Below are positions 3,941-27,280 of a DNA stretch of 32,517 nt, piece by piece (the first letter of the stretch is position 1; each line of letters opens with the position of its first letter). Location of the stretch: contig JAFRXI010000072.1 in the NCBI GenBank assembly GCA_017437755.1, forward strand, positions 1-32,517, written 5' to 3'. Source of the DNA: Bacteroidales bacterium (lineage in GTDB: Bacteria; Bacteroidota; Bacteroidia; Bacteroidales; UBA932). Under the pieces are notes generated by a model. It was not told where the DNA came from and searched no databases. It worked only from the letters and a program-made list of their open reading frames with translations. The position numbers and the translations under genes were made by a program.

Positions 3941-4552
3941 ATGCTGCTTTCCACGGCATATTTCCCGCCCTTGAGCTGGTTTGCCCTTGCGGCGGGCAGT
4001 CCTGTGGTGCAGCTTGAAGCCTTTGAGCACTACACCAAACAGACATGGCGTAACCGCTGTGCCATCATGACGGCAGGCGGCAGGGAAACCCTGCACGTTC
4101 CGGTGGTCCATTCCGGCGGGAAGGTCCCGATCAGGGAAGTGAGGATAGAGTACCTCACGCCATGGGTGGTCCGTACGGAGAGGACCATCGATTCGGCCTA
4201 CCGTTCATCTGCCTGGTTTGACTATTACAGGGACTCCCTGTATTCCATACTGGAAAGCGGGGAAGAATACCTGTTTGACCTTAACCTTAACATTATCAAT
4301 TATTTCCTGCAGAAGATAGGTATTCCAACCGCGGTTGTGCCTACTACCGAGTGGACTCCCCAGGGAGGCGGGGACGACTGGAGGGATGCACTGCATCCCA
4401 AGAGGGAGGACACGGTCCTCCGGGACATGGGACTGGAAAAGCCGTATTTCCAGGTCTTTTCCGGGAAATACGGCTTTGTGCCCAATCTTTCCGTCATGGA
4501 CCTCCTTTTCAACGAAGGTCCTGAGTCGGTCTTTTATCTAAGGAAGCCTTAG
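3941..4552 (+). CDS. WbqC-like family protein
   Basis: 203 residues resembling the WbqC family (PF08889): N-terminal MLLSTAYFPPLSWFALAAGS, then EHYTKQTWRNRCAIMTAGG, RTERTIDSAYRSSAWFDYY and a C-terminal KYGFVPNLSVMDLLFNEGPES block. These proteins are often found near surface polysaccharide or envelope genes; the biochemical activity is not settled, though an acyl- or aminotransferase-like role in sugar modification has been proposed. No signal peptide or membrane span is seen, so it is cytoplasmic. It starts 14 bases after lpxA and is probably the last gene of the lpxC-lpxA unit. Its stop codon overlaps the convergent stop of the downstream outer-membrane protein gene by four bases. Confidence 0.8.
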   Translation: MLLSTAYFPPLSWFALAAGSPVVQLEAFEHYTKQTWRNRCAIMTAGGRETLHVPVVHSGGKVPIREVRIEYLTPWVVRTERTIDSAYRSSAWFDYYRDSLYSILESGEEYLFDLNLNIINYFLQKIGIPTAVVPTTEWTPQGGGDDWRDALHPKREDTVLRDMGLEKPYFQVFSGKYGFVPNLSVMDLLFNEGPESVFYLRKP

Positions 4553-6159
4553 AATCTCCACCCGAGGGTGAATATCACGTCCCATTTCTTTGTCTTGGCA
4601 AGGATCTCGGGCGAAGGCATGTCGTTGAGGTAGTCTTCGTACACCTTGACGAACTCGTCAGGCATGAAGGTGGCCCTCACGGCAAGGTCTGCGAAGAACG
4701 ACCCGTTGGAACTGTATCCCAGACCGGCCGAGACAGCCTGCCTTGCGGCGTTTACGGTATCCTTGAAAGGGGTGGAGGTGTAATTGTATCCCGCGCGTAC
4801 TGCAAATGAGGGAGTGGGCCTGAATTCGGCACCCAGCCTGAACAGGTGCGACGCCTTCATCCCGGCCACTATGTCCTCGTTCTGGATGGCATAATCATCG
4901 TCGCCGTAGAAATTGGAGCCCCTTGTGCGGAAACGCATGGTGCTGTAGTCGCAGAGCTCATAGTCGGCGCTGATCATTCCGTAATTCCCGAAGGTGTAGG
5001 CTATACCTGCATCCAGGAGGTAAGGGGTGCGGAAATGGTATGTGGAGGTCCCGGGATAATCGGTCCCGCCGCTGGCATCCCACTGGGAATCGGTGTAGGT
5101 TGTGTAGGCGTCGTAGCTCCAGGACTCCTTGATCGTCATGGCGGTGGGGGTCTGGATGGCGGCACCCAGCCTGAGGCCCGAGAACGGGGTAGCTATGAAA
5201 CCGGCCTTGAAGTAGACTCCGCTTCCGTCGGTGTCAAGGGCGAAGCGGGAACGCATGTCGCGGAAATAGGTCTTGGCTGTTTCGTCGAAATTCAGGTCAA
5301 AGTCCTGCGGGTCCACAGCGGCCTCGTAGATGTACTCGTTGTAACGGTAGTCGAGGGAGGTCACCCCAAGGTTGGCGCCGATGAACAGCTTGTCGTTGAT
5401 GTTAGCGCCGAAGTTCATGAGGATGTCGTACTTGTTGCCGGAAGTGAGCCTTCCATATTTCTGGGAGAGGTCACCGGCGATGCCCATGGTCCCGTCGGGG
5501 AATATCTTTTCCGATGTGCCGATGTACTGGTCGGGGATGATTTCACCGTCTTCCACGGTATTGCTGATGAGACCGGCGTCCCAACCGACTATGACGGGCC
5601 ATGGGATGCTGGCGTTGTCCCAGGCGTTGGAAGCCTTTATGTCATTGACATTTATGCCGTTGGCCTGCGTGGAAAGCCATCCCATGTATGAGGAATGCAT
5701 GTTCTCTCCGGAGGCATAGAGTTCGCTGTTGTAATTGTTGGTGGCGTTGCCTGTTATGCCGAACGACCAGCTCTTGACGCCCCTGGTGCGGTGGGTGTCG
5801 AAGTTGAACATGAACCCGAAGTGGGGGAAAATCATCTTGGTTTTGCTGTTGACGTTCTCGTCGCCGAAGCAATAGGGCGATTTGTCGCCGTCGAGGGTGA
5901 GCCCCATGGCGTTGACAGACGCGATGCTGATGCCGGGGGAGAGGGTGATCTGGGAATACCCGGCCACGGCCGAACCGGCGGGATTGAACGTGAGTGACCC
6001 GAGGTCACCTCCCACGGCGGTCATGGCATTGCCCATTCCCACCGAGCGTGCAGTCCCAAGATAGTTGGTCTGGCTGTAGTTGTAGGCATCCCACATGTTC
6101 TGGGCTCCGGCGCTGAGCGCGAGGCCCGCAAGCATAGATATGATAATGGTCTTTTTCAT
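4549..6159 (-). CDS. OmpP1/FadL-type outer-membrane transport protein
   Basis: 536 residues with a signal peptide (MKKTIIISMLAGLALSAGAQ, cleavage after the AGAQ end). The mature start contains YLGTARSVGMGNAMTAVGGDLGSLTFNPAGSA, the family hallmark in which an early GMG...A...D...NPAG segment forms the N-terminal hatch. The remainder is rich in alternating aromatic beta strands and ends in Phe (FTLGWRF), as outer-membrane barrels do. Members import hydrophobic molecules such as long-chain fatty acids; in Bacteroidales the ligand is mostly unknown (some are labelled hemin receptors). It follows the aromatic-rich lipoprotein gene by 37 bases on the same strand and likely shares its transcript. 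Confidence 0.85.
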   Translation of the reverse strand: MKKTIIISMLAGLALSAGAQNMWDAYNYSQTNYLGTARSVGMGNAMTAVGGDLGSLTFNPAGSAVAGYSQITLSPGISIASVNAMGLTLDGDKSPYCFGDENVNSKTKMIFPHFGFMFNFDTHRTRGVKSWSFGITGNATNNYNSELYASGENMHSSYMGWLSTQANGINVNDIKASNAWDNASIPWPVIVGWDAGLISNTVEDGEIIPDQYIGTSEKIFPDGTMGIAGDLSQKYGRLTSGNKYDILMNFGANINDKLFIGANLGVTSLDYRYNEYIYEAAVDPQDFDLNFDETAKTYFRDMRSRFALDTDGSGVYFKAGFIATPFSGLRLGAAIQTPTAMTIKESWSYDAYTTYTDSQWDASGGTDYPGTSTYHFRTPYLLDAGIAYTFGNYGMISADYELCDYSTMRFRTRGSNFYGDDDYAIQNEDIVAGMKASHLFRLGAEFRPTPSFAVRAGYNYTSTPFKDTVNAARQAVSAGLGYSSNGSFFADLAVRATFMPDEFVKVYEDYLNDMPSPEILAKTKKWDVIFTLGWRF

Positions 6160-6196: not shown

Positions 6197-7510
6197 TTAC
6201 CTGCGGCCTCCACCGCTGTGAGAACTGGAATGTCCGCCGGAGGAATGGCTGCTGGAGGAGTGTCCTCCCGAGTAACCTCCCGAGGAATGCCCTCCCGAGT
6301 AGCCGCCGGAAGACCTGCTGGATCCGCCGTAACTGCTGGAAGACGAGGACCTGCCGGAGGAATAGCTGCCGCCGGAATAACCGCCGCTGGACCTGCTGGA
6401 CGAGGACCTGCTGGAGGAATAGCTTCCGCTGGAGGAGGAAGACGACCTGCTGGCGGACGACGATGACCTGGACGACGAAGATGAGGATGAAGGGGTGCGG
6501 TACGATGTTGAAGGAGTTGTCCTGGAAGACGAGGCCCTGCTTGAGCGGGATCCGGAGTATGAACTCCTGGAAGCAGTTGAGGCAGAAGACCTTACGGCTG
6601 ATGAGGAGCCGGATGCCCTTGATACTGCGGACGAGCTGCGCGAGGCGCTGGATGCGGTGGAAGGACTCCTCCTCACGGGGGTGAGGGCGGTCCTGGCCGA
6701 TGAAGTGCGGGACGCTGAACTCATCCTGGATACGGAACTGTTGGACCTCCTTGCGGAAGAGGTTGCGGGAGAACCGTACCTGGAGGAAGTCCCGAGTCCG
6801 GTGAGGGCCCTGCCGGAGTTGCTCCTGGGAGCGGTATAGGACCTTGGCGTGTAGTGTGCACGGCCCCAGTAGCGGTCGCCGTGATAATAGTGGTGGTGGC
6901 CGTAATAGCCGCCGTACCATCCGCCGTAGTAGCCGTACCAGCCGTAATCACCGTAGAACCAGGGATCGTGGAACCAGGGGCTCCAGTACAGCGAGGAATA
7001 GCCCCAGCCGTAATGCCAGGGATGGTGATAGTACCATGAGGGACCATAGTACCAGGGGCTGCCCCAATACCATGAATCCCAGTAAATACTGCTGTAATAC
7101 CAGGGGCTGCTCCAATACCAGGAAGAGCCGTACCAGGGATCCCACCATGAACTCAGGTACCAGGGACGGTATGCCCAGGAATAGTTCCAGTAGTAGTCCG
7201 GGGTGTCGAACACGGTGACCGTGGTGTTGCCTTCCTGCGGATTGAACTTGAACGACACTGCCTTGTTTTCAGGGATGAAGAGGGTGTCGTTCTGACCGCT
7301 GTGCAGAAATATCTGCGAGCCCTTTGTCTCTTCAACCAGGTTTGCCACCTCACTGTCGGCGACAGGGGCTGCAACGGTTTCTTCGGTTTGAGGTTTATAG
7401 TAGATTCCGTCCCTGAACCTCTGGGTAGGGGCTTGGGAGAGCTGCGCCATTGAACCGCACGCGGATAGTGCTGCAAGCGCTGTCAGGCAAAGTACAATGT
7501 TCGTTTTCAT
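6197..7510 (-). CDS. Low-complexity surface lipoprotein with Trp/Tyr-rich and Ser/Arg-rich blocks
   Basis: 437 residues, not recognised as a named family. The lipoprotein signal ends at Cys18 (LAALSACGS). Residues ~20-105 look like a small folded domain (QIFLHSGQNDTLFIPENKAV, ending VTVFDTPDYY). Residues ~106-222 are extremely aromatic, with about 22 Trp plus many Tyr, Pro, Gly and His in repeats like SPWYYGPSWY. Residues ~225-370 are almost only Ser, Arg, Ala and Thr; the last ~65 are Ser/Gly/His/Tyr repeats such as SSGGYSGGHS. A possible Shine-Dalgarno AGGAG lies at 7521-7525 on the minus strand, unusual in this phylum. A structural or sticky envelope protein is a guess; export is supported by the lipobox only. 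The frame is open across all low-complexity blocks. Confidence 0.85.
   Translation of the reverse strand: MKTNIVLCLTALAALSACGSMAQLSQAPTQRFRDGIYYKPQTEETVAAPVADSEVANLVEETKGSQIFLHSGQNDTLFIPENKAVSFKFNPQEGNTTVTVFDTPDYYWNYSWAYRPWYLSSWWDPWYGSSWYWSSPWYYSSIYWDSWYWGSPWYYGPSWYYHHPWHYGWGYSSLYWSPWFHDPWFYGDYGWYGYYGGWYGGYYGHHHYYHGDRYWGRAHYTPRSYTAPRSNSGRALTGLGTSSRYGSPATSSARRSNSSVSRMSSASRTSSARTALTPVRRSPSTASSASRSSSAVSRASGSSSAVRSSASTASRSSYSGSRSSRASSSRTTPSTSYRTPSSSSSSSRSSSSASRSSSSSSGSYSSSRSSSSRSSGGYSGGSYSSGRSSSSSSYGGSSRSSGGYSGGHSSGGYSGGHSSSSHSSGGHSSSHSGGGRR
7050..7120 (-). repeat. Imperfect 48-bp repeat inside the aromatic-rich lipoprotein gene
   Basis: 23 bases at 7050-7072 recur at 7098-7120 with one mismatch (core CAGGGGCTGC), 48 bases apart, encoding the repeated SPWYY / GSPWYYG unit. 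Shorter related units with the core TACCAGGG continue to about 7160. This indicates growth of the Trp/Tyr block by slippage or unequal exchange. Confidence 0.65.
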
Positions 7511-14774: not shown

Positions 14775-15272
14775 ATGGATATAGAGGCACTTTTCAGGCA
14801 GTACTATCCCCGTATGAGGAATTTCGCCACGCGCATCGTTGAGCGTGGTGATATTGCCGACGACATAGTGCAGGAGTGCTTCATAAAACTCTATGAGAAG
14901 CGTTTTTCCATACGGGACGTCTCGCCCGGCGCCCTGCTGTTCGTGATGGTGCGCAATTCCTGCATCAATTATTTAAGGCGCAGGGCCCAGCTCTATACCG
15001 GAATGGAGGCGGCTGCGCAGGTGATGGTCACCCCCGAGGACGAGATAATGTACGCCGAGTTGCAGCAGGAGATAGAAAAGGTGATGCGCACCCTTCCGCC
15101 AAGATGCCGGGAGGTATTCTATATGAGCCGTTTCGAGGGCTTGAAAGTCAAGGAGATAGCGGAGCGGACCGGAACTTCCACCCAGAATGTGGAAAAGCAT
15201 ATATCAAGGGCCCTGGAGGTGTTTGCGCGCCATTTTGGCGGACTGGACATCTATGCCCGCAGTTTTGCTTGA
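14775..15272 (+). CDS. ECF sigma-70 factor, Bacteroidetes FecI-like
   Basis: 165 residues. Region 2 (residues ~5-70) shows LFRQYYPRMRNFATRIV, DIADDIVQECFIKLYE and the FVMVRNSCINYLRRR promoter-melting helix. Region 4 (~105-155) shows LPPRCREVFYMSRFEGLKVKEIAERTG and STQNVEKHISRALEVF, a helix-turn-helix for the -35 element. It redirects RNA polymerase to a small set of target promoters and is normally held by the FecR-type protein encoded 52 bases downstream. The STN-containing SusC after that completes the usual three-part trans-envelope signalling cascade. The target is most likely the susCD operon; no promoter of the housekeeping type is visible before fecR or susC, which fits sigma-specific control (inference). 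Confidence 0.93.
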   Translation: MDIEALFRQYYPRMRNFATRIVERGDIADDIVQECFIKLYEKRFSIRDVSPGALLFVMVRNSCINYLRRRAQLYTGMEAAAQVMVTPEDEIMYAELQQEIEKVMRTLPPRCREVFYMSRFEGLKVKEIAERTGTSTQNVEKHISRALEVFARHFGGLDIYARSFA

Positions 15273-15324
15273 TTTTTTTTGATTTTCAAGGTTGGTTTTT
15301 TGATGGTTTTCTTGTTATATATGC

Positions 15325-16302
15325 ATGACAAGGAACAACCAATTTTATAAAGACCTGTCTTTCAAGTATTTCAGGGGAGAGATAACGGCTTCGGAAGAAA
15401 AGGAGCTGTTTGAGTGGCTCAAGGCCGGTGAAAACCGTATGGCCACCCTTCATGAGTGGGAGGACGAGTGGAAGGATACCGGCGTGGTTGAGAATACACC
15501 GGTGTGGGAGTCGATGCTGGGAAGGATCGCTGCCAGGGAGGCGCTGGAGACATCCGACGTGATGCCCCGCAGGAAGATGTCCCCCTGGATCGGTGCCGTG
15601 GCCGCTGCGGTGGTGGCCCTATTTGGCGCTATCTTCCTTCTGGCAAGACCCGAACCGGTCCAGGAATATGCGATGGAAGCGCCCGCAGGGGAAAAAAGCA
15701 GGATTTTCCTGCCCGACAGTTCGGTGGTCTGGCTCAATTCGGGGTCAAAGCTCTTTTTCAACAGTTCGTTCAATTCCAAGGACCGCCGGGTAGCCCTGGT
15801 GGGGGAGGGGTATTTTGAGGTAAGCCACAACGAGCAGCTTCCTTTCAGGGTGACGTGCGGCGACGTGGACGTGCTGGTCAAGGGGACCAAGTTCAACGTG
15901 TCGGCCTATCCCGAAGACCTGTTTGTCACGACCAGTGTACTGGAGGGGCATGTGGTATTCAGCCACGGAGACGCCCACATGGACCTGCTGAAGGGACAGT
16001 CGGCCAGGTACGACGTGGTTTCCGGCTCCTTCTCACGTTCTCTCCAGACCCCGGAGAACGAGTCGGCATGGACGGAAAGCCGTTTCGTTTACGAGGGGAT
16101 AACCTTGTCGGAACTTGCCGAGAAACTGTCCAGGACCTATGCGGTGAGATTCCACTTCAATACCTCCGAACACCTCGACGGCAAATTCAATATCTCGCTG
16201 CGCAACAACGAGTCGCTTGACGATGTCCTGAGGGCACTTGAGAAGATGATTCCCATCAAGGCCAGGAGAGAGGGCGACAATGTGTACATAGACAAGCGGT
16301 AA
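15325..16302 (+). CDS. FecR-type anti-sigma factor
   Basis: 325 residues. The cytoplasmic N-terminus (1-86) carries the helical sigma-binding segment FRGEITASEEKELFEWLKAG. A single transmembrane helix spans ~87-108 (WIGAVAAAVVALFGAIFLLA). The periplasmic FecR domain follows (~115-215, with EKSRIFLPDSSVVWLNSGSK, VALVGEGYFEVSHNE and VLVKGTKFNVSAYPED), and a C-terminal DUF4974-like/STN-like domain (~250-325, FVYEGITLSELAEKLSRTY) completes it. It should relay ligand binding at the outer-membrane SusC to the ECF sigma factor. The ATG at 15325 is chosen; an ATG four bases upstream is in another frame. The 52-bp gap before it is T-rich with no clear housekeeping promoter. Confidence 0.93.
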   Translation: MTRNNQFYKDLSFKYFRGEITASEEKELFEWLKAGENRMATLHEWEDEWKDTGVVENTPVWESMLGRIAAREALETSDVMPRRKMSPWIGAVAAAVVALFGAIFLLARPEPVQEYAMEAPAGEKSRIFLPDSSVVWLNSGSKLFFNSSFNSKDRRVALVGEGYFEVSHNEQLPFRVTCGDVDVLVKGTKFNVSAYPEDLFVTTSVLEGHVVFSHGDAHMDLLKGQSARYDVVSGSFSRSLQTPENESAWTESRFVYEGITLSELAEKLSRTYAVRFHFNTSEHLDGKFNISLRNNESLDDVLRALEKMIPIKARREGDNVYIDKR

Positions 16303-16357
16303 TTAATTCTAACCAACAATATATCGTAATCTAATCTAATCATTAACTGTAAAGCAA

Positions 16358-19300
16358 ATGAAACTGCAATCAAAAACAGGAATCATCGTCCTCCTGCTGC
16401 TGGCAGTGACATTCTCCGCCTGGGCGCAAGGCTCGGTTACGGGGAAATGGAACGGCCAGCCCTTGAAGACGGTGCTCAGGAGCATCGAGGGGCAGACCGG
16501 CCTCTCGGTATTCTACCGTTCCGACGAGATTGACGAGTCTGCACCAGTTACCGCTGATTTCAACGCGACCCCGGTGGAGGCGGCCCTGCGCTCCATCCTC
16601 GGCTCCGACGTGGACGTCAGCATAAGCGGCAAGATGATCGTCCTCTCCAAGAAGGAGGCAAAGCCTGCGGGAACAGTCCACGGCCGGGTGACCGACGAGT
16701 CGGGCGAGGGCGTTCCAGGTGCGGGTGTCTTTATCAAGGGAACCACCAGGGGCGTTTCCACCGACCTTGACGGGAATTATTCCATCGCAGCCACCCCGGG
16801 AACGGTACTGACCTTCTCTTCAATGGGTTACGCCAGCAAGGAGGTTACCGTCGGAAAATCCTCGGTGGTGAATGTAGTCCTGGCCGAGGACAACGAAATG
16901 CTCAACGAACTGGTGGTGGTGGGTTATGGTACCCAGAAAAAGGCCAACCTTACCGGTGCAGTATCCGTGGTCAAGGCCGATGCACTCCAGGACCGTTCGG
17001 CCATCGACGTCGCGCACATGCTCCAGGGTTCAGTTCCCGGACTTAACGTTACGTCCTCTTCAGGACAGCCCGGAGGTGTGGCGGACCTCAACATCCGCGG
17101 CCGCAACTCCATCAACGGCGGTTCACCGCTGGTCCTTGTGGACGGTGTGGAAAGCACCCTCCACTATATAAACCCGGCTGACGTGGAGTCCATCTCCGTT
17201 ATCAAGGACGCCGCCGCGGCAGCCATCTACGGAGCAAAGGGTTCCGCCGGCGTCATCCTCGTCACCACCAAGAGCGGAAGCAAGGACAAGGAAGGGAAGG
17301 CCACCGTCCGTTACAGCGGACGTGCCGGTTTCACCGCCCCTACCGCTTCCACCGACTGGGAGACGCGCGGCTACTATTCCGTGTACCTCAGCAACATGTT
17401 CCTCAGGACATACAGCGGTGAGAACCTCTATGCCTATTCCGAAGAGGACATGGTGGAACTGTGGAACCGCCGGAACGACAAGGTCGAGAATCCCGCCCGC
17501 CCGTGGGTGGTGATAGGCCAGGACCAGTCCGGCAGGGATGTCTATAACTACTATGCCAACACCGACTGGTGGCATGTGGTCTACAATGACATCAAGCCCT
17601 CCACGAGCCATACCATAACCGCCAGCGGTGCCACCAAGAACGTTGACTACCTGATTTCCGGAGGGTACAACTTCGAGCAGGGAATGTTCAAGATCAAACC
17701 CGACAAGTACAACCGCTACAACCTCCGCGTGAAGGTGGGCTTCGACGTTACCAAGTGGCTTCGCATAGGAAACAACCTCAGTTTCTTCAGCAGCAGCTAT
17801 TTCTATCCCGGACAGGGAGGAATCAAGAACTCGCTGTACTGGGCTTCCGCCCATGCCCCTGCGAGCTATCCTGCCGTAAATCCCGACGGAACAACCCTTT
17901 ACAAGACCAAGTATAACAACAATACGGTCCTTGCGGGTCTTATGGTGACCCTCGCCAACGGCGACTGCAACACCGACAGGATAGACAATCTGAGCGATAC
18001 CTTCGACGTGACCATCAAGCCGTTCAAGGGAATGACCGTGAAGGGAGACTTCACCTATTCGCTGAACCTTGTCCGCTACATGAACAGGACCACGCCCGGG
18101 GAATATTCCACATATCCCGGTGTCATAGAGACCATAGATACCGGCGACGGGTTCGAGAACAAGCTGACTGAGACTGCGAACATCTCCACCTACAAGTCGG
18201 CCAACCTGTATGCCACTTACGAGCATGTATGGGCCAATGCCCACAATTTCAAGCTCATGGCCGGTTTGAACTATGACCACAAGCACATCAAGGACCTCAA
18301 GGGGGTTGGATACGACCTGTATTCCATGGACCTGAACGACCTTGACCTTACCGGTCAGGATGAAGAGGGAAACAAGCGGATGGAAGTCTACGGCGGCCAG
18401 AACGAATACATGACGGCCGGTTACTTCGCCCGTCTCAACTATGACTACAAGGGCAGGTACCTGTTTGAGGCGAACGCCCGTTACGACGGATCGTCCCGCT
18501 TCCTCCGCGGAAGCCGCTGGGTATTCTCCCCGTCCTTCTCCGTTGGCTGGAGGGTTTCGGAAGAGAAGTTCTTCGAGCCCCTCAGGTCGTGGTGGGACAA
18601 CCTCAAGATCCGCTTCTCCTGGGGCCAGCTCGGCAACCAGCAGCTCAGCGAATACTATCCTGCAATCCGTACCATCTCCACGGGATCGCTTTCCTCTTAT
18701 ATCATAGGCGGTCCCAGGCCTTCCCTGGCCAGCATCTCCGCTCCGGTTTCGTCCGGACTTACTTGGGAGCGCTCCATCCAGAAGAACCTGGGTATCGACA
18801 TGACATTCCTCAGCGGCAGGCTTGATTTCTCGGCCGAAGCATATATCCGTGACACCAAGGACATGCTCACCGCCGGCGAGCCCCTGCCCGCCACCTACGG
18901 ATACAGCACCGCTCCCAAGGAGAACGTGGCTGACCTCCGCACCAAGGGTTATGAGCTGTCGATTACCTGGAAGGATTCCTTCCAGCTGGCCGGCAGCCCC
19001 TTCCACTACAGCGTGGGCGGATCGCTGAGCGACTATGTCTCCCACATCACGAGGTTCAACAACCCCGACAAGCTCTTTGCAAAGAATTACTGGGTGGGAC
19101 AGAAGTACGGTGAAATCTGGGGTTACCATATCCTGGGCCTGTTTGCAACCGATGCCGATGCCGCTGCCTGGTCGGAGAAAGTCGACCAGTCCAAGGTCAA
19201 CGCCATCATCAACGCCAGCACCGGTACCGTGAATCCGGTTTCCGGCAAGCCCGGACTCTGCGCAGGTGACCTCCAGTACTGGGACAACGGCGACGGCGTC

Positions 19301-19882
19301 ATCAACCAGGGTGCAGAGAAGGTCGGCGACAGCGGCGACTGGCAGATAATCGGTAACAGCCAGCCCAGGTTCAACTTCGGCCTCAACCTGAGCGCCTCCT
19401 GGTACAATTTTGACATATCGGCGTTCTTCCAGGGCATAGGCCACATGGACTGGTATCCGCAGTATGAAGTCCGTCAGTTCTGGTCGCTCTATGCCAGGCC
19501 GTTCTGTACATTCATCCCCAAGGATTTCCAGACAATGTACTGGACCGAGGAGAATCCCAACGCCTACTTCCCCCGTCCCAGGGGTTATGTGGCCGGCGTG
19601 GGCCGCGGCCGTGAGCTCACCGAGCCCAATGACCGTTACCTCCAGAACATCGGCTACCTGAGGCTCAAGAACCTGACCGTTGGCTATACCGTTCCTGAAA
19701 AGATATCGCGCAAGGCCGGAATCAAGCAGCTCCGCATCTACTTCACCGGCGAGAATCTCTTCTACTGGTGCCCCGGACTCCATTCAAAGTACATCGATCC
19801 GGAAATGGCACAGACCAACGGGAATCTCCGTATCTATCCCTGGCAGAAGACCATCATGTTCGGTCTGGACATCACCCTTTAA
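16358..19882 (+). CDS. SusC/RagA-type TonB-dependent outer-membrane transporter with N-terminal STN signalling domain
   Basis: 1174 residues, longer than plain SusC because of the extra STN domain. Order: signal peptide (1-24, ending AWAQ); STN/secretin-like domain ~30-98 (LKTVLRSIEGQTGLSVFYRS, VEAALRSIL); carboxypeptidase-regulatory-like domain ~107-176 (VHGRVTDESGEGVPGAGVFI, DGNYSI); TonB box region ~182-190 (LNELVVVGYG). A plug domain follows (~193-310, with LNIRGRNSINGGSPLVLVDG and IYGAKGSAGVILVTTK), then a ~860-residue barrel ending IMFGLDITL. It should import a ligand across the outer membrane with energy from TonB, while the STN domain contacts the FecR-like protein to signal occupancy. 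The gap before it (16303-16357) holds only a short CTAAT-type tandem motif. Confidence 0.96.
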   Translation: MKLQSKTGIIVLLLLAVTFSAWAQGSVTGKWNGQPLKTVLRSIEGQTGLSVFYRSDEIDESAPVTADFNATPVEAALRSILGSDVDVSISGKMIVLSKKEAKPAGTVHGRVTDESGEGVPGAGVFIKGTTRGVSTDLDGNYSIAATPGTVLTFSSMGYASKEVTVGKSSVVNVVLAEDNEMLNELVVVGYGTQKKANLTGAVSVVKADALQDRSAIDVAHMLQGSVPGLNVTSSSGQPGGVADLNIRGRNSINGGSPLVLVDGVESTLHYINPADVESISVIKDAAAAAIYGAKGSAGVILVTTKSGSKDKEGKATVRYSGRAGFTAPTASTDWETRGYYSVYLSNMFLRTYSGENLYAYSEEDMVELWNRRNDKVENPARPWVVIGQDQSGRDVYNYYANTDWWHVVYNDIKPSTSHTITASGATKNVDYLISGGYNFEQGMFKIKPDKYNRYNLRVKVGFDVTKWLRIGNNLSFFSSSYFYPGQGGIKNSLYWASAHAPASYPAVNPDGTTLYKTKYNNNTVLAGLMVTLANGDCNTDRIDNLSDTFDVTIKPFKGMTVKGDFTYSLNLVRYMNRTTPGEYSTYPGVIETIDTGDGFENKLTETANISTYKSANLYATYEHVWANAHNFKLMAGLNYDHKHIKDLKGVGYDLYSMDLNDLDLTGQDEEGNKRMEVYGGQNEYMTAGYFARLNYDYKGRYLFEANARYDGSSRFLRGSRWVFSPSFSVGWRVSEEKFFEPLRSWWDNLKIRFSWGQLGNQQLSEYYPAIRTISTGSLSSYIIGGPRPSLASISAPVSSGLTWERSIQKNLGIDMTFLSGRLDFSAEAYIRDTKDMLTAGEPLPATYGYSTAPKENVADLRTKGYELSITWKDSFQLAGSPFHYSVGGSLSDYVSHITRFNNPDKLFAKNYWVGQKYGEIWGYHILGLFATDADAAAWSEKVDQSKVNAIINASTGTVNPVSGKPGLCAGDLQYWDNGDGVINQGAEKVGDSGDWQIIGNSQPRFNFGLNLSASWYNFDISAFFQGIGHMDWYPQYEVRQFWSLYARPFCTFIPKDFQTMYWTEENPNAYFPRPRGYVAGVGRGRELTEPNDRYLQNIGYLRLKNLTVGYTVPEKISRKAGIKQLRIYFTGENLFYWCPGLHSKYIDPEMAQTNGNLRIYPWQKTIMFGLDITL

Positions 19883-19894
19883 AAGAATATGCAT

Positions 19895-21691
19895 ATGAAA
19901 AAGATAGCATACATACTGATTCCGGTCCTGGCCTGCTGCGTTTTCACCGGTTGCGACGACCTGCTTGACGCAGTTCCCAAAGATAAGATGTCGCCGGATA
20001 CTTTCTTCAAGAGCGAGAAGGAACTCAAGGCCTTCAGCATGAACATGTACGGCATGCTGCCGGGAGCCGGTTCCCTTTTCATGGAAGATGCCGACAATTA
20101 CATCCAGATGGGTCTCACCGACGAGATCAAGGGTACCCGCCAGATCGAGCCGTCCGGCAACGGATGGAGCTGGGGTGCACTCCGTAACGTCAACACCCTG
20201 ATCGAATATCTTCCCAACTGCGACGATGCCGCCGCCCGGACCAGATACGAGGCCCTTGCCCGTTTCTTCCGCGCGTACTTCTATTTTGAGAAGGTAAAGC
20301 GTTTTGGCGACGTTCCCTGGTATGACAAGCCCGTGGGCTCTGCCGACACCGACGCCCTGAACCGTCCCCGTGACAGCAGGGAGTTCATCATGGGCAAGAT
20401 GATAGAGGACATCGATTTTGCAATCGGCCATCTACCTGCCACGAAGAGCGCCTATGAGATTACAAAATGGACCGCGATGGCCCTGAAGTCCCGTTTCCTC
20501 CTCTTTGAGGGAACCTTCCGGAAATACCACACCGAGTTTGACTATGGTGCAAATGCCCATGAATGGAAGTGGTACCTGGATGAATGCGCAAAGGTGTCCG
20601 AGGAGTTCATGGGAGCCAGCGGTTACGGTATCCATACCACCGGCGGTGCTTCCAAGGCCTATTACAGCCTGTTCACCAGCGAGAACGCCACGGCCAACAC
20701 CGACGAGGTGATCCTGGCCCGCAACTACAACAGCGCCTACAACGTGACCCACAATGCCAACGGAATGATGAATTCCGCCACCAACGGACGCCACGGCATG
20801 ACCCGCAAGATGGTGGCCAGCTACCTGATGGCGGACGGCTCGCGCTTTACGGACAGGGAAGGCTGGGAAACCATGGACTTTGTCACTGAGACCCAGGACC
20901 GTGATCCCCGTCTGGCACAGACCATACGCACTCCCGGTTATACCAGGCTCGGCGACAAGACTCCCTGCCCTCCCAACTTCCTGTACTGCATGACGGGTTA
21001 CCACCCCACCAAGTACGTAATGGGCCTTGACAAGGACAATTACAACATTTCCGACGTCGACCTCATCATCTTCCGTGCAGCGGAGGTGCTGCTCAACTTT
21101 GCCGAGGCAAAGGCCGAGGCCGGAACGCTGACGCAGTCCGACCTGGACATGTCCGTAAACAAGATCCGCGCAAGGGTCGCCCTGCCCAAACTTGACATGC
21201 AGGAAGCGAATGCCAATCCGGATCCGTTCCTCACCAACCCCGACTGGGGCGGTTACCAGAACGTCACCGGCTCCAACAAGGGTGTCATCCTGGAAATCCG
21301 TCGCGAAAGGGCGGTGGAACTTGCCCAGGAAGGCTTCCGCTACTATGACATCATGCGCTGGAAGGAAGGCCAGGTCTTCACCAGGCAGTTCTATGGCATG
21401 TATTTCCCGGGTCCCGGCGAGTACGACCTAAACTCCGACGGAATCGTGGACATCCTCCTGTACGCCGGCGATTCCGCCCCTGCCTCCACTGCTCCCGTAA
21501 AGTACAAGGTGGGAAGTGCCGATTTCATCCTGAGCGCTGGGGAATCCGGCAACGTCAATCCTTACAAGGAGCTCACCTGCAAGTGGAATGAGGGACGCGA
21601 CTATCTCTATCCTATCCCTACCGACGAGCGTAACCTTACCGGCGGCGCCCTGAAGCAGAATCCCGGATGGAATGACAATTTGAATTTCTAA
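19895..21691 (+). CDS. SusD/RagB family glycan-binding lipoprotein
   Basis: 598 residues from MKKIAYILIP; another ATG lies two codons upstream (19889). The lipoprotein signal ends at the Cys in VFTGCDDLLD. The SusD N-terminal region has DKMSPDTFFKSEKELKAFSMNMYGML, and the TPR-like part has RFFRAYFYFEKVKRFGDVPWYDKPV. The C-terminal signature is IFRAAEVLLNFAEAKAEAG, then ILEIRRERAVELAQEGFRYYDIMRW and the final YLYPIPTDERNL. It caps SusC on the cell surface and binds the glycan. It begins 12 bases after susC, the normal SusC-SusD arrangement. The binding ligand cannot be told from sequence. Confidence 0.96.
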   Translation: MKKIAYILIPVLACCVFTGCDDLLDAVPKDKMSPDTFFKSEKELKAFSMNMYGMLPGAGSLFMEDADNYIQMGLTDEIKGTRQIEPSGNGWSWGALRNVNTLIEYLPNCDDAAARTRYEALARFFRAYFYFEKVKRFGDVPWYDKPVGSADTDALNRPRDSREFIMGKMIEDIDFAIGHLPATKSAYEITKWTAMALKSRFLLFEGTFRKYHTEFDYGANAHEWKWYLDECAKVSEEFMGASGYGIHTTGGASKAYYSLFTSENATANTDEVILARNYNSAYNVTHNANGMMNSATNGRHGMTRKMVASYLMADGSRFTDREGWETMDFVTETQDRDPRLAQTIRTPGYTRLGDKTPCPPNFLYCMTGYHPTKYVMGLDKDNYNISDVDLIIFRAAEVLLNFAEAKAEAGTLTQSDLDMSVNKIRARVALPKLDMQEANANPDPFLTNPDWGGYQNVTGSNKGVILEIRRERAVELAQEGFRYYDIMRWKEGQVFTRQFYGMYFPGPGEYDLNSDGIVDILLYAGDSAPASTAPVKYKVGSADFILSAGESGNVNPYKELTCKWNEGRDYLYPIPTDERNLTGGALKQNPGWNDNLNF

Positions 21692-21704
21692 GATGCTTTG
21701 CGGT

Positions 21705-23399
21705 ATGAAAAAGATATTTATACTGATTCTGGCCCTTCCAATCCTTGCCGTTTCCTGCAAGAACGGGGATGATGTAGTCCCCGGGACCATGAAGGGCATC
21801 TTCTATGCCGACATCCCCGGCGATAAGGAGATGGTGGAGATCGTCCCCAACGGCAGCAGGACATATAACCTCAGGGCCTGCGCCCAGGGTGACAATGTTG
21901 CCGACGCGGTGATGAACTTCACTTTCAAGGCCGATCCCGACCTGGTTGACGCCTATAACTCTGCGCACGGGACTTCCTACAGGATGTGCCCCGGCTCGGC
22001 TTTTGAATTCGTGGTCAACGAGGTCATGCTTCCCCGTTACGGAAAGTCTTCCACCACGGCCAAGGTAAAGGTTATCGCTTCCGGTCTCGAGAATGGGGTG
22101 CAGTACATCCTCCCCGTCACAATCGACCAGGCAACCGGATCTCCCAACTGGGCTGTGGCCGACACCATGGCCGCATACGTCCTGTTCCACATGAGCGATT
22201 ACGACCCCAACGGCCCCGGTACGGAGAACAATCCTTATCCCATAACGTCGGTGGACGACCTCAAGGCCATGGGCTCCAAGGCAATCGAGGGCACCAGGGT
22301 TTATTTCCGCATGGAGAACGACATCGACATGGCCGGTGTGACCGACTGGGAGCCCGTCAACCAGTTCGAGCCTTACAAGGAGTTCGACTTTGACGGCGGC
22401 GGCTTCACGATCTCCAACTTTACCGGCGGAACCAGCCTGTTCGGTGCAGTGGTGGGCAGCTGCCATGACCTGACTGTGGTGAATGCCAACATTACTGCGG
22501 CAGCCGCTCCCATAGGCATCATAGGTGCTTACGGCGGAGCAGCCGACATGCCCGTGGATGTGAGCCACGTGTACGTGCAGGGCAAGATCAACAACACCGT
22601 GGGTCACGGAACCGGCGGCCTGTTCGGCAAGATAGTGGAAGCCACCATCGACGCCTGCTCGGCCGATGTGGTGATTGTCAGCAACAAGTACGACTCCGGC
22701 GGAATCTATGGTTATGACGAAACCGGCGCAAACAAGAAGAGCGTGATCTCCAACTGCTGGACCGCCGGCGACATCACCGGTAACCGAATGGTGGGCGGTA
22801 TCGCGGGAATGGTATCGATGAATGAAAGCGAATGTACCATAAGGTGCTGTTACTCAACTGCAAAGGTCCATGCCCAGTTCAAGTACGGCGGTATAGCCGG
22901 CGATGGCATGATGAGCTTGAAGGACAACAGCAAGACTCCCAAGAACCACTTTGAGAAGTGCATAGCCTGGAACGAAGCAATCCATTCCGACGTGAGTGAT
23001 GCCAGCGTGCACTACAGCGCCGGTGCCATAGTGGGCTTCAGCTCCACCAAGAACTACCATGTTGACTGCATGCGCAGGGAGGACCTCAACTTCTCCGACT
23101 GCCCCGGGAACACCACCAACACCCTGGTGGACCAGGGCAACTCCTCGCCGGATTCCCCCCTGGTGCAGGTTGCAGTGAGCCCGGGTTCTACCAACTACAA
23201 CTATCCTTACCACGGCAAGGCTGCCGCCAAGGGTGCTACGGCATCACAGGTGGCCCAGCTCCTTGGTTGGGATGAGAGTATCTGGGACCTTTCCGGCGCC
23301 TTGCCGTTCTTCAAGGGAGCTTCTGCCCCCGTTGAGAATCCCGACGTGAACCCCGGAGGCCAGTTCCCCGACTTTGACGAGAACGAGTTCTACAATTAA
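21705..23399 (+). CDS. Surface lipoprotein: DUF1735 (BT_3987-like) N-terminal domain plus GLUG-like repeats
   Basis: 564 residues from MKKIFILILALPILA; an in-frame ATG four codons upstream is less likely because it breaks the signal peptide. Lipobox LAVSC, Cys18, followed by KNGDD, which fits a surface-export signal. Residues ~25-155 match DUF1735: LVDAYNSAHGTSYRMCP and VQYILPVTIDQATG. From ~160 to ~460 the protein is a beta-helix-like array with GLUG-type GGLFG, GGIYG and GGIAG turns (start NPYPITSVDDLKAMG). The last third (EKCIAWNEAIHSDVSDASVHY, GWDESIWDLSGALPFF) is closely related to the next gene's C-terminus. By position it is probably a surface glycan-binding protein of the SusCD locus; no catalytic residues are recognised. 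Confidence 0.85.
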   Translation: MKKIFILILALPILAVSCKNGDDVVPGTMKGIFYADIPGDKEMVEIVPNGSRTYNLRACAQGDNVADAVMNFTFKADPDLVDAYNSAHGTSYRMCPGSAFEFVVNEVMLPRYGKSSTTAKVKVIASGLENGVQYILPVTIDQATGSPNWAVADTMAAYVLFHMSDYDPNGPGTENNPYPITSVDDLKAMGSKAIEGTRVYFRMENDIDMAGVTDWEPVNQFEPYKEFDFDGGGFTISNFTGGTSLFGAVVGSCHDLTVVNANITAAAAPIGIIGAYGGAADMPVDVSHVYVQGKINNTVGHGTGGLFGKIVEATIDACSADVVIVSNKYDSGGIYGYDETGANKKSVISNCWTAGDITGNRMVGGIAGMVSMNESECTIRCCYSTAKVHAQFKYGGIAGDGMMSLKDNSKTPKNHFEKCIAWNEAIHSDVSDASVHYSAGAIVGFSSTKNYHVDCMRREDLNFSDCPGNTTNTLVDQGNSSPDSPLVQVAVSPGSTNYNYPYHGKAAAKGATASQVAQLLGWDESIWDLSGALPFFKGASAPVENPDVNPGGQFPDFDENEFYN

Positions 23400-23411
23400 A
23401 CCAGACGAGAT

Positions 23412-25373
23412 ATGAAAACATATAGATATATCATAGCACTCATTGCCGGAGCAGCCGTTCTTTCCTGCACCAAGGAGATGAAGGAACTTCCGGCCCCGCA
23501 GGACTCGGCTGAACTTGTGACCATCAGGGCCACTCTTCCTGAAAATGCGCCTCTGATGAAGGCGGGCCCCCATTCCGGTTTTTCCTGGCGCTGGTCCGCC
23601 GGTGACAAGCTTACCGTTATGGGCGAAGGCGGAGCGCAGGAAGTTTTCACCATCAAGTCCGGTTTCTCCTCCAATTTCGCCGAATTTGAGGGAAAGGCCG
23701 TTCCCGGTGAGAAATTCACCATCCTTTTCCCGGACGAAAAGGCCCTCACCACCGACTGGAGCAAACAGACCCAGGCCGGAAACGGCAGCATCGACCACCT
23801 CAAGTACGAGGCTTGCCTTACCGACGTGGACGATTACATGAGTTTCACCTTCAGCCCGGAGTGGGCGGCTGAGCACGGCGGAAGCCTCAAGCATACCGGC
23901 GTCCTCAAGCTCACCGTCACCCTGCCTGCAGACGTGAAGAAGGTCACCAAGGTTACCCTGTCGGCCCCCACCGCCCTTTTCTACGGCGGGAACGGCGATA
24001 CCATGACCGACAAGATCGCCCTTGACCTGTCCGACTGCAACATCGGCGACGACCACCTGCTAACAGCCTGGATGACTACATCCTGGAACGAGGCGGTGGT
24101 TCCCGTCGACGGAACCCTCTCGCTGAGCGTCGGAACCTCGGATTCTCCCATAGCCAAGACCGTTACCTTCACCAAGGAAGGAAAGGTCCTGGGCGGCAAG
24201 ATTAACACCTTTGTAACCGATGCGGCCGGTTGGACTTATTCCAGCCGCTACGCCTCCGGTTCCGGTACCGAGGCCGATCCATGGATCATCACCACGCCCA
24301 GGCATATGAGCTTCATGGCAGAGGATATGGCCGACGGCGAGACCCGCTACTTCAAGCTGGGCGCCGATATCGACATGGCGGAAATCACCGACTGGGTGCC
24401 GCTCAATGCCGCCGGGTCGTTTGAAAAGAAGATAGATTTCAACGGCGACGGCCATACCATTTCCAACTTCAGCTGCTCTGCCTCCAAGTATTCCAGCTTC
24501 TTTGGCGTGCTGTACGGCAAGTGCTACGATGTGAAGTTCGTGAATGCCACCATCAATGCCACCACGGCAGGCAGCGGCATACTGGGAGGCTATTGCGGAA
24601 CCACCGGCAAGCCCGGCGAGGCCACCAGGGTATCCGTCCAGGGAACCATAAACTGCGAGGCCAACAACCATGGCGGATTGTTCGGCAATGTCAATGAGGC
24701 TACAATCACTGCCTGCTCGGCGGATGTAGTTATCACGGCAAAAGGCCAGTGCATAGGCGGACTGTTCGGAGTCGACCCCGGACTGGTGACAGTCAGGGAT
24801 TGCTGGAGCGCCGGAAGCATCTCTACCACCGCTTCGATAGCAGGAGGTATCTGCGGTGACCTGAAGACCGCCAACAGTTCCATATACAACTGTTACTCAA
24901 CTGCTTCCGTGACCACTCAGTTCATTTTCGGAGGCATTGTGGGACGTGCCGTGGCAGGTCAGAAGTCCAACAAGAACAACTGCACCAATCAGGATCCCAG
25001 GAACCATATAGAGAAGTGCATAGCCTGGAACGATTTCCTAAAGTCCGACTATGTCCCCGATACGTCCGAGCACTACGGGAGCGGTGCCGTCGTGGGACAG
25101 ACCGCGTTCAAGAACTACCTGACTGGCTGTATCCGCAAGAGCGACCTCTCCTATACCCTTTGTGCCGCCAACGTTGCCGCGGGAGGCTACGACCTGTTTG
25201 ACCAGGAGGATGCCGATCCCGATCACCCCATGGTCTTCGGCACCGGCAACTATGCTTTCGGATACAACGGAAAGGCCGCCGCTGCGGGCAAGACCATCAG
25301 CCAGGTGGCCCAGGATCTGGGCTGGAGTTCTGAAGTCTGGGACTTCAGCGGTAATGCACCCAAGTTGAAATAA
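23412..25373 (+). CDS. Surface lipoprotein: Mfa-like/fimbrillin-type N-terminal domain plus GLUG-like repeats
   Basis: 653 residues. The lipobox is AAVLSC. Residues ~35-270 resemble the fimbrillin/Mfa-like group (WRWSAGDKLTVMGEGG, AEFEGKAVPGEKFTILFPDE, HTGVLKLTVTLPADVKKVTKVTL, GGKINTFVTDAAGW). Residues ~275-653 parallel the previous gene's GLUG-like half: ADPWIITTPRHMSFMAEDM, VQGTINCEANNHGGLFG, ITACSADVVI, EKCIAWNDFLKSDYVPDTSEHY and the terminal QVAQDLGWSSEVWDFSG. So the two are paralogues by their C-terminal parts only. It is probably a second ligand-binding protein at the cell surface; a fimbrial role is less likely given its position in a Sus-type operon. It starts 12 bases after the preceding stop. 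Confidence 0.83.
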   Translation: MKTYRYIIALIAGAAVLSCTKEMKELPAPQDSAELVTIRATLPENAPLMKAGPHSGFSWRWSAGDKLTVMGEGGAQEVFTIKSGFSSNFAEFEGKAVPGEKFTILFPDEKALTTDWSKQTQAGNGSIDHLKYEACLTDVDDYMSFTFSPEWAAEHGGSLKHTGVLKLTVTLPADVKKVTKVTLSAPTALFYGGNGDTMTDKIALDLSDCNIGDDHLLTAWMTTSWNEAVVPVDGTLSLSVGTSDSPIAKTVTFTKEGKVLGGKINTFVTDAAGWTYSSRYASGSGTEADPWIITTPRHMSFMAEDMADGETRYFKLGADIDMAEITDWVPLNAAGSFEKKIDFNGDGHTISNFSCSASKYSSFFGVLYGKCYDVKFVNATINATTAGSGILGGYCGTTGKPGEATRVSVQGTINCEANNHGGLFGNVNEATITACSADVVITAKGQCIGGLFGVDPGLVTVRDCWSAGSISTTASIAGGICGDLKTANSSIYNCYSTASVTTQFIFGGIVGRAVAGQKSNKNNCTNQDPRNHIEKCIAWNDFLKSDYVPDTSEHYGSGAVVGQTAFKNYLTGCIRKSDLSYTLCAANVAAGGYDLFDQEDADPDHPMVFGTGNYAFGYNGKAAAAGKTISQVAQDLGWSSEVWDFSGNAPKLK

Positions 25374-25375
25374 AG

Positions 25376-26494
25376 ATGAAGAGAAGTCGTTTTTTCACTG
25401 TTCTGGTCATCCTGCCCCTGCTGCTTGCCGGCTGCGGGGGCAAGGATGCACCCGAACTTCCGCCTCCGGTCATAAAGCCGGACACCCCGTCAACCCCAAG
25501 TGATCCCGATACTCCGGAAGATCCCGGTACTCAGGACGATACCCCCAAGCCTTGGGACCAGAACCGCGGCAAGGTGGTGACCCCTTCCGGGAGTAACTGG
25601 ACTTCCAAGACCATCGACGAAGGTGTGGTCTACTACTCCTTCTCAGGAAAGGATGAACTTTCCAACCAGATGGAAGAGGTGTTTGTAGTGGACGTGGACC
25701 TCTCCAAGAGCCAGTATCAGGTCAAACTGGTCTGGAAAAGCCCGCGCGTGGCCTGCTCGGAAGTCCAGAAGAGTTTCGGTGACAAGGCCATCGCCACGAT
25801 GAACGCCAATTACGAACTGGGTTCCATTTTCGTCAAGGTTGACGGTACCACCCGGTACCAGATCAACAACCTGAAAATCGGCGATACGGATGTTCCCAAC
25901 TGGAAAAACGAGGGAGCGTTCATGTGCGACGGGGAGCGGGGCATCGATATCCAGTTTGCCGGTTCTCCCAAGAAAGACGGCAAGATTACCGGAATCAAGG
26001 GAAAGACCGACGCCGAGGCCGTGGGGCTTCAGAGGACCTATTACAAGAGCATCGCGGGTTCATGGCCTCATCTGATTTCCAGCGCGCCCATGCTGGTCAA
26101 CGACTACGAACCGGTAGGGGAGAGTTTCTGCAACAATTCGCTCTCGAGCAGCGAGGTGCTCAAGCTCAACTCCGAGGATCCCGACCGCCACCAGAGGGTG
26201 CTGCACCCCCGTACCGCGGTGGCGCTGACGGAGAACAACCACTTCATAATGTTCGTGGTTGACGGACGTCAGACCAGCAAGGGCATGTCGTGCCGGCAGC
26301 TTACCAGATTCATGGTGAAGTGGTTCAATCCCCAGTACGCCCTGAACATGGACGGAGGCGGTTCCACCACCCTCTGCGTAAAGGGTCAGGGAGACCCCAC
26401 CACCCATGTGGTGAACTACCCGTGCGACAACAACCAGTATGACCACGCGGGTGAACGTGCGCGCGACGTCCACTTTGTAGTGTTAAAGAAATAG
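25376..26494 (+). CDS. Phosphodiester glycosidase (NAGPA/DUF2233 family) lipoprotein
   Basis: 372 residues. The lipoprotein signal ends at Cys20 (LLLAGCGG). A Pro/Asp/Thr-rich linker (~24-62) follows, then a NAGPA domain (PF09992). Visible family motifs: MNANYE (~142-147, equivalent of the N-G/A-x-F/Y segment), SAPMLVNDY (~236-244), LHPRTAVAL (~276-284), IMFVVDGRQ (~291-299) and NMDGGGSTTL (~324-333). Characterised relatives hydrolyse sugar-1-phosphodiesters, as when the mammalian uncovering enzyme removes GlcNAc from GlcNAc-P-mannose. Here it is probably anchored at the cell surface and acts on the ligand of the SusCD pair; the exact substrate is unknown. It begins two bases after the previous stop and is followed by the SGNH gene after three bases: clearly one operon. 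Confidence 0.87.
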   Translation: MKRSRFFTVLVILPLLLAGCGGKDAPELPPPVIKPDTPSTPSDPDTPEDPGTQDDTPKPWDQNRGKVVTPSGSNWTSKTIDEGVVYYSFSGKDELSNQMEEVFVVDVDLSKSQYQVKLVWKSPRVACSEVQKSFGDKAIATMNANYELGSIFVKVDGTTRYQINNLKIGDTDVPNWKNEGAFMCDGERGIDIQFAGSPKKDGKITGIKGKTDAEAVGLQRTYYKSIAGSWPHLISSAPMLVNDYEPVGESFCNNSLSSSEVLKLNSEDPDRHQRVLHPRTAVALTENNHFIMFVVDGRQTSKGMSCRQLTRFMVKWFNPQYALNMDGGGSTTLCVKGQGDPTTHVVNYPCDNNQYDHAGERARDVHFVVLKK

Positions 26495-26497
26495 CAA

Positions 26498-27280
26498 ATG
26501 AAAATGCGTTTTGCATGGCTTCTGGCGTCGGTCCTGGTCGCATTCTCCTGCGGCAAGGAACCGGCGCCGGAACTGCCGCCGCCCGTCGCTCCGCCGTCGG
26601 TGGTGGATGACAATAATACCCACACGGGCCCGCTTGCCGTATTCATCGGCGACAGCATCACCTGGCAGTGGGCCCGCGCGTCGCGGACCGATACAAGGGA
26701 CAAGCTTGTGATTCCCCTGGATCCGCTGCCTTCATTCATGAAGCAGAACGGGGACAGCTACACCACTTATTTCCATCCCCAGTTCTTTACCTCCAACAGG
26801 TACAGCAACAAGGGAATCAGTGCGGAGAATACCACCCAGATGCTGGCCCGTTACAAGACCGACGTGCTTGACCAGGACCCGCACAGCGTTGTGATCATGG
26901 GCGGTACCAACGACCTGGCCCAGGGCGTGCAGAAGGCCCAGATACTCTCCAATATCAAGCAGATGGCGGAACAGGCGGAGGCCAAGGGAATAAAGGTCAT
27001 CCTTTGCTCCGTAACTCCCTGCAACGAAAAGTATTCCCGCCTCAGCAACCCCAGCACCAAAGGGGACCACATCATTACCCTTAACGGCATGATAAAGGGC
27101 TATGCCCAGGAAAAAGGTTATACTTATTGCGACTACCATCCCACCCTTGCGGCCCCCGACGGCCTGGCACTCAGGGACGAGTACTGCCTGTATGACAGGC
27201 TTCATCCCAACCCCGATGCCTACACCGAGATGGAGAAGATAATAAAGCCCATCATAGAAAAGGTACTGGAAAGCGAGTAA
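26498..27280 (+). CDS. SGNH/GDSL-family hydrolase lipoprotein
   Basis: 260 residues. The lipobox is VAFSC with Cys18. A Pro-rich linker follows, then an SGNH fold. The four blocks are visible: FIGDSIT with nucleophile Ser53, NKGISAENT (oxyanion Gly107), GGTNDL with Asn138, and DRLHPN with Asp233/His236. Closest in style to acetylhydrolase/lipase-like esterases that act on acylated sugars; alternatively a phospholipase-type esterase. Its leader shares the APELPPPV sequence with the preceding NAGPA lipoprotein. It is the last gene of the Sus-type locus, and its stop codon TAA lies directly against the stop of the convergent channel gene. Confidence 0.88.
   Translation: MKMRFAWLLASVLVAFSCGKEPAPELPPPVAPPSVVDDNNTHTGPLAVFIGDSITWQWARASRTDTRDKLVIPLDPLPSFMKQNGDSYTTYFHPQFFTSNRYSNKGISAENTTQMLARYKTDVLDQDPHSVVIMGGTNDLAQGVQKAQILSNIKQMAEQAEAKGIKVILCSVTPCNEKYSRLSNPSTKGDHIITLNGMIKGYAQEKGYTYCDYHPTLAAPDGLALRDEYCLYDRLHPNPDAYTEMEKIIKPIIEKVLESE

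Follow-up and report, generated by a model that had tools for sequence, protein, structure and literature searches.

We analysed a 32,517-base stretch of DNA from a Bacteroidales bacterium (the window, which is the entire contig C42 of a 2.88-Mb genome that is 84.87% complete) and found in it a Sus-type polysaccharide utilization locus (PUL) of eight co-directional genes (14775..27280, plus strand) built around a NAGPA-family phosphodiester glycosidase. From comparison with its relatives, we consider it probable that the locus serves the use of a glycan with sugar-1-phosphodiester bonds, in which the NAGPA protein would cut these bonds and an SGNH hydrolase would deacylate the glycan. More tentatively, such loci may represent an undescribed class of PUL that has sugar-1-phosphodiester hydrolysis as its key depolymerising step, with which gut Bacteroidales would eat the capsules, pellicles and teichoic-type polymers of their neighbours, and to which a bifunctional "uncap-and-dephosphorylate" enzyme occurring in two domain orders would belong.

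To describe the spread of the system, we counted as a close NAGPA match any protein reaching E <= 1e-40 against the window NAGPA, a threshold that takes in both the core type and a fused paralogue. Such a match was present in 91 of 400 genomes of one Bacteroidales genus (36 of 150 among the good-quality genomes). In an order-wide search of 393 genomes, at least three of them from the same genus, the source genome alone attained 1e-40, and the runner-up reached 1.2e-18 over about 90 residues. The sampling names of six of seven relative metagenome-assembled genomes hint at ruminants, the origin being a guess for Tb.RUG among them and for RUI007. Within the genus the order susC-susD-GLUG1-GLUG2-NAGPA recurs, and of 40 Sus runs with NAGPA, 34 have the core susD-GLUG1-GLUG2-NAGPA in this order. 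These 34 core loci were selected by their similarity to the window NAGPA, so that the counts given below are not an unbiased rate, and several of the species are closely related, which makes the counts non-independent. The loci were read in slices of up to 20 kb (with a second slice for eight of the 34) after removal of six duplicate slices of the same contigs (L040, L047, L070, L043, L044 and L045). Genes were called by our own script and labelled by phmmer seeds, and partner families (histidine phosphatase, Exo_endo_phos, major facilitator superfamily (MFS) and Agp) were counted on either strand. The first-pass annotation of the window had suggested a search for conservation of the full eight-gene order; the five genes from susC to NAGPA do recur, but the SGNH gene is found in 28 of the 34 loci and the ECF/FecR pair in only five.

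Among the 34 loci read, phosphatases accompany the core more often than glycoside hydrolases do. Twenty-two of these loci have a linked histidine-phosphatase relative, 18 an Exo_endo_phos protein and six an Agp-like phosphatase, and calcineurin-like phosphoesterases (metallophosphoesterases) adjoin the core in a further two (L074 and L085). An organophosphate-type MFS transporter resembling GlpT, UhpT or PgtP is linked in 12 loci, and 24 have more than one NAGPA gene. Glycoside hydrolases (GHs) occur in at least five: GH20 in L069, L076 and L088/L109, GH78 in L069 and L091/L110, and GH97 in L089/L108. NAGPA and SGNH are indeed the linked carbohydrate-active enzymes of the window, but the idea that this pair is the self-contained enzyme content of such loci in general had to be rejected on the partner counts. 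Flanking hydrolases in related loci had been named at the outset as a point that would speak against the proposal; they are found in part, yet the majority of the additional enzymes lend weight to the phosphodiester proposal. These enzymes, together with the nearest sigma-linked relative (L066), in which the SGNH gene is followed by a NAGPA-phosphatase fusion while the window locus ends at SGNH, indicate that the window copy is a reduced member of the system. In L109 a phage-integrase-type gene (15375-16331, minus strand) separates the core from a part carrying GH20, MFS and fusion genes, which hints that the accessory part can move. In another relative a serpin gene lies just upstream of susC (L077:17559-18791, minus strand). 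NAGPA and phosphate-cleaving proteins also stand together in a different PUL, a Sus-type locus (L056; G009:C36:43000-62999) with two NAGPA genes, GH39, GH3, an S1/P1 nuclease and AXE1.

The fusions bear most directly on the proposed chemistry. A separate NAGPA paralogue is joined to a phosphatase domain of about 400 residues in both domain orders, in one open frame: of the 400 genomes of the genus, at least 39 have phosphatase-NAGPA and at least 24 NAGPA-phosphatase; this was a hand count in which two NAGPA halves were taken from the genus-wide NAGPA search and some rows have stop codons in the alignment, at domain ends. Among the matches listed in the search of 393 genomes of the order, none outside the genus spans both parts. 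The phosphatase domain is homologous to the His_Phos_2 protein L057_10 (about 30% identity, 1e-31 to 1e-60) and matches solved chains of a histidine acid phosphatase (7r5y, 1.8e-36) and of MINPP (1.9e-23). Of the RHG.R.P and HD-type motifs of branch 2 histidine acid phosphatases, it retains RHG.R and GHD, the first as RHGSRY(A/L/F-type) and lacking the canonical P. In a tree of 92 NAGPA domains (87 of them different), the fused domains of both orders group with one stand-alone neighbour in one clade (33 rows, support 100/100) apart from the core NAGPA. The fusions thus support a sequence in which a sugar-1-phosphodiester is cut and the phosphate is then removed. One phosphatase-NAGPA fusion is directly followed by a GDPD/DUF4996 protein (L051:1772-4878) and does not lie near any Sus pair in the slice.

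A simple lipobox pattern was matched by 20 of 20 SGNH proteins, six of six Agp-like proteins and 15 of 18 Exo_endo_phos proteins, but by only one of 32 fusions, a distribution consistent with first steps at the surface or membrane and completion in the periplasm. For the core NAGPA, a strict pattern was found in 23 of 34 proteins, and the other 11, inspected by eye, also have a cysteine ending a hydrophobic stretch.

On this basis we infer the localisation of the proteins, the order of the reactions and the identity of the glycan. SusD and the two GLUG-like lipoproteins would capture glycan at the surface. There the NAGPA lipoprotein, probably cell-surface, would cleave the sugar-1-phosphate linkage on its sugar side, so that a phosphomonoester stays on the following residue. 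The SGNH lipoprotein may strip O-acyl groups, and the released pieces would be imported through SusC. In the fuller relatives, periplasmic processing of the oligosaccharides would be completed by the fusion of a second NAGPA paralogue with a histidine acid phosphatase, aided by Exo_endo_phos proteins, Agp-like phosphatases or metallo-phosphatases and by a few glycoside hydrolases, and the organophosphate-type MFS transporter may take up phosphorylated or free sugars. For the window copy, phosphatases and transporter, if used, would act from unlinked genes. The first reading of the DNA, a system that senses, uncaps and de-esterifies a phosphodiester-bearing glycan, agrees in outline with the Sus-type layout, with a NAGPA-family lipoprotein that is the one conserved enzyme and keeps the family residues, and with the phosphate-cleaving neighbours.

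Several observations weigh against this interpretation. No NAGPA match at 1e-40 was found in 309 of the 400 genus genomes. The window locus itself has no phosphatase, and for seven of the 34 core loci, the window included, the slices examined contain none of the phosphate-cleaving families. In the source genome, 84.87% complete, no fusion of NAGPA and phosphatase was found. The MFS and Agp-like assignments score below NCBIfam cut-offs, and the fused phosphatase domain attains no Pfam family of its own and is named through L057_10 and the PDB chains. Finally, of the eight histidine-phosphatase matches in the source genome, four have a SusD match no more than some 12 kb away, inside or outside NAGPA loci. 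As histidine phosphatases are thus found near other Sus loci too, proximity is weak evidence and its origin by chance is partly real, and the fusions are the strong part of the argument.

Control of the core appears to be exchangeable. In the window, the ECF sigma factor, the FecR-type anti-sigma and an STN-like SusC (its STN domain below cut-off) make up the linked, presumably glycan-responsive regulator of a Sus-type PUL, which agrees with the initial description of the locus as sigma-controlled. As a general trait this does not hold: sigma and FecR genes precede the core in the five loci mentioned above, while 16 loci have in their place a divergent DUF6377 protein (PF19904 in L048, homologues by BLAST), the remainder being cut or having other genes. 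The sigma factors of the five loci are orthologues (66-75% identical, compared with 30-34% for other ECF factors of the source genome), and the window FecR is 56-63% identical to those in the four other sigma-linked loci. SusC measures 1161-1176 residues in the five sigma loci versus 1079-1101 in other core loci (one contig-cut copy aside), and the difference is N-terminal. The sigma loci are scattered on the SusD tree, which forces at least three changes, and their clustering is no better than that of shuffled labels. The control module has thus been swapped or lost more than once, while the core has persisted.

The open reading frames of all eight genes were located where the first-pass annotation had placed them, and Pfam and NCBIfam back each name, with qualifications for STN and GLUG. 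The intergenic gaps, given there as 2-55 bases, measure 52, 55, 6, 1, 12, 2 and 3, and therefore range from 1 to 55. The ECF sigma factor (14775..15272, 165 residues) matches PF08281/PF04542 (Sigma70 r2/r4) and TIGR02985 above cut-off, and the FecR-type anti-sigma (15325..16302, 325 residues) matches PF04773 (FecR) and PF16344 (FecR_C). The next gene encodes a SusC-type TonB-dependent transporter with an N-terminal STN-like extension (16358..19882, 1174 residues; CarbopepD_reg_2 and Plug). It was originally called an STN-SusC; the SusC/RagA assignment is clear (TIGR04056, 866.6 bits), but the STN domain scores only 20.4 bits against a Pfam cut-off of 28.4. The SusD-type glycan-binding lipoprotein (19889..21691, 600 residues; PF07980 SusD_RagB, 6.1e-49) adjoins it across the 6-base gap, giving the adjacent susC-susD pair by which Sus-type loci are recognised.

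Two GLUG-like surface lipoproteins follow, GLUG1 with a BT_3987-like N-terminal domain (21693..23399, 568 residues; PF08522, 3.5e-15) and GLUG2 without a Pfam family (23412..25373, 653 residues). Neither matches Pfam Glug, but the name finds some justification in Glug scores among relatives and in the solved chain 3n6z ("putative immunoglobulin A1 protease"), which both match (3.5e-22 for GLUG1 and 3.9e-31 for GLUG2). GLUG1 also matches the DUF1735 protein 8w01 (0.0011). The two are probable surface glycan-binding proteins.

The NAGPA-family phosphodiester glycosidase lipoprotein (25376..26494, 372 residues) matches PF09992 at 2e-21, with 77.4 bits against a cut-off of 25. It aligns with the uncovering-enzyme chains 6pki/6pkg across the RTAV, VDG and N.DGGGS segments, and R279, D296, N324, D326, the GGG and S330 are common to it and to solved members. 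In 59 of 59 NAGPA-only proteins, P278, R279, G297, R298, G303, A322, N324, D326, GGG327-329, P349 and R361 are invariant, and D296 and S330 are kept in 58. A NAGPA domain lacking its catalytic residues had been named earlier as a point that would speak against the proposal; the alignments show that the family's conserved residues are kept. The last gene encodes the SGNH/GDSL hydrolase lipoprotein (26498..27280, 260 residues; PF13472 Lipase_GDSL_2, 1.5e-23, 84.7 bits), which has the GDS, GGTND-type and DxxH blocks and matches the solved chain 3p94 at 3e-26. The active-site motifs first reported for the two enzymes (NMDGGGSTT; GDS, GGTND and DRLHPN) are all present in the sequence.

Upstream of the locus, hisS lies on the same strand and ends three bases 5' of the sigma gene, and the transcript may therefore begin further upstream. 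Downstream, the locus is bounded by a convergent MscS-type gene starting at 27281. Elsewhere in the window, LpxC (2194-3114) is 306 residues long and showed no match to a FabZ part; fusion of LpxC to FabZ is usual in Bacteroidota. Two long minus-strand open reading frames (4549-6159 and 6197-7510) have no Pfam match, and the second was dropped by our gene caller.

The source genome holds eight NAGPA matches, seven of them above cut-off. Five are close to SusD matches (46 in the whole genome) and fall into four loci, on contigs C4, C41, C42 and C45. The C41 locus (L060) is a diverged copy of the window layout, with the order sigma-fecR-susC-susD-GLUG1-NAGPA-GLUG2. The Sus locus on C4 (L057) has NAGPA, BACON proteins and His_Phos_2, and that on C45 (L061) has a NAGPA-BACON protein and Exo_endo_phos. 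Unlinked to the window locus, the genome also contains the eight histidine-phosphatase matches, a GlpT-like MFS protein (81%) and an Exo_endo_phos protein (50%).

As to the substrate, the most probable candidate is a polymer with phosphodiester links made by another microbe, either a capsule or a rhamnose-containing cell-wall phosphopolysaccharide. The lactococcal pellicle is described as a polymer built from Glc, Gal, GlcNAc and Rha with phosphodiester links (PMC5596347), and a second source describes related structures (PMC8327497). The linked GH20, GH78 and GH97 genes agree with a polymer of this kind, which we offer as a compatible example and not as a demonstrated substrate. The same three families speak against a eukaryotic target, that is, fungal phosphomannan (Man-1-P-Man) or host or protozoal GlcNAc-1-P-mannose, on which the animal uncovering enzyme classically acts. 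Such a target would fit PF08522, named after BT_3987, in GLUG1. However, the likeness to animal enzymes runs through a family of very broad membership, and neither GH92, GH76, GH38 or GH99 nor any other alpha-mannosidase, mannanase or endo-GlcNAcase family appeared among those listed for the flanking genes scanned (in one scan, 25 of 64 families were listed). Phosphomannan and host GlcNAc-P-mannose, both named as candidates in the earlier annotation, are accordingly disfavoured, and we regard a eukaryotic target as quite unlikely.

The abundance of phosphate-cleaving partners could also mean that the loci mainly scavenge phosphate or phosphosugars, as from teichoic acid or inositol phosphates, with NAGPA just opening access for phosphatases. 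MINPP-related histidine phosphatases, Exo_endo_phos proteins, metallophosphoesterases and GlpT/UhpT/PgtP-type MFS transporters would all suit this explanation, as would the GDPD beside the fusion gene of L051. We nevertheless think it unlikely, as the large SusC/SusD and GLUG proteins suggest a polymer, glycoside hydrolases accompany some of the cores, and regulation is of PUL type (ECF/FecR/STN or DUF6377) and not obviously phosphate-responsive, although no search for Pho-type sites was made. Remodelling of the cell's own capsule or O-antigen, in place of feeding on foreign glycan, is suggested by one COG label for the protein group, "exopolysaccharide biosynthesis protein related to NAGPA" (PMC5114307). 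SusC/SusD, surface lipoproteins and TonB-dependent import serve uptake, and within the genes scanned no glycosyltransferase is annotated in or beside the core, which makes this explanation highly improbable.

If use of a sugar-1-phosphodiester glycan is indeed the function, phosphate-bridged microbial glycans would serve as food in the gut. The usual way to read a PUL is through its glycoside hydrolases and lyases, and a widespread type built around a phosphodiester glycosidase would escape it. The NAGPA-phosphatase fusions offer a direct and cheap biochemical test of the two-step chemistry and could yield tools for trimming phosphopolysaccharides.

With the NAGPA/DUF2233 family, which includes the animal mannose-6-phosphate uncovering enzyme and the solved bacterial protein 3ohg, the window enzyme shares the R, VDG and N.DGGGS segments; unlike these, it is a bacterial lipoprotein within a PUL, and a histidine acid phosphatase is fused to one of its paralogues. 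In animals, uncovering precedes removal of mannose-6-phosphate by lysosomal acid phosphatase, and the two enzymes are separate. UDP-GlcNAc is also hydrolysed by the animal uncovering enzyme (PMC12024695). The fused phosphatase domain matches MINPP-type histidine acid phosphatases of Bacteroidota (4fdt/4fdu and 5cx4, which we take to originate from B. thetaiotaomicron) over most of its length, but here it is fused to or beside NAGPA, and free phytate alone is an unlikely substrate. NAGPA joined to a phosphoesterase has already been reported, with a different phosphatase: some Gram-positive calcineurin-like phosphoesterases of the ShfP family are fused to NAGPA, with (lipo)teichoic acid among the cell-surface polymers that are their predicted targets, and that description, as far as available, has another phosphatase fold and no Sus-type uptake locus (PMC11488536). 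In the open-access literature, which was covered in part, we found no paper describing a NAGPA-centred PUL, a weak negative. The closest parallel in layout is with the Sus-type PULs of Bacteroidota, which share the SusC-SusD pair, the lipoproteins after SusD and, in the window, ECF/FecR/STN-SusC control, with the regulator type swapped in relatives. In contrast to these, the conserved enzyme here is a phosphodiester glycosidase, and phosphatases outnumber glycoside hydrolases as its partners across the 34 loci.

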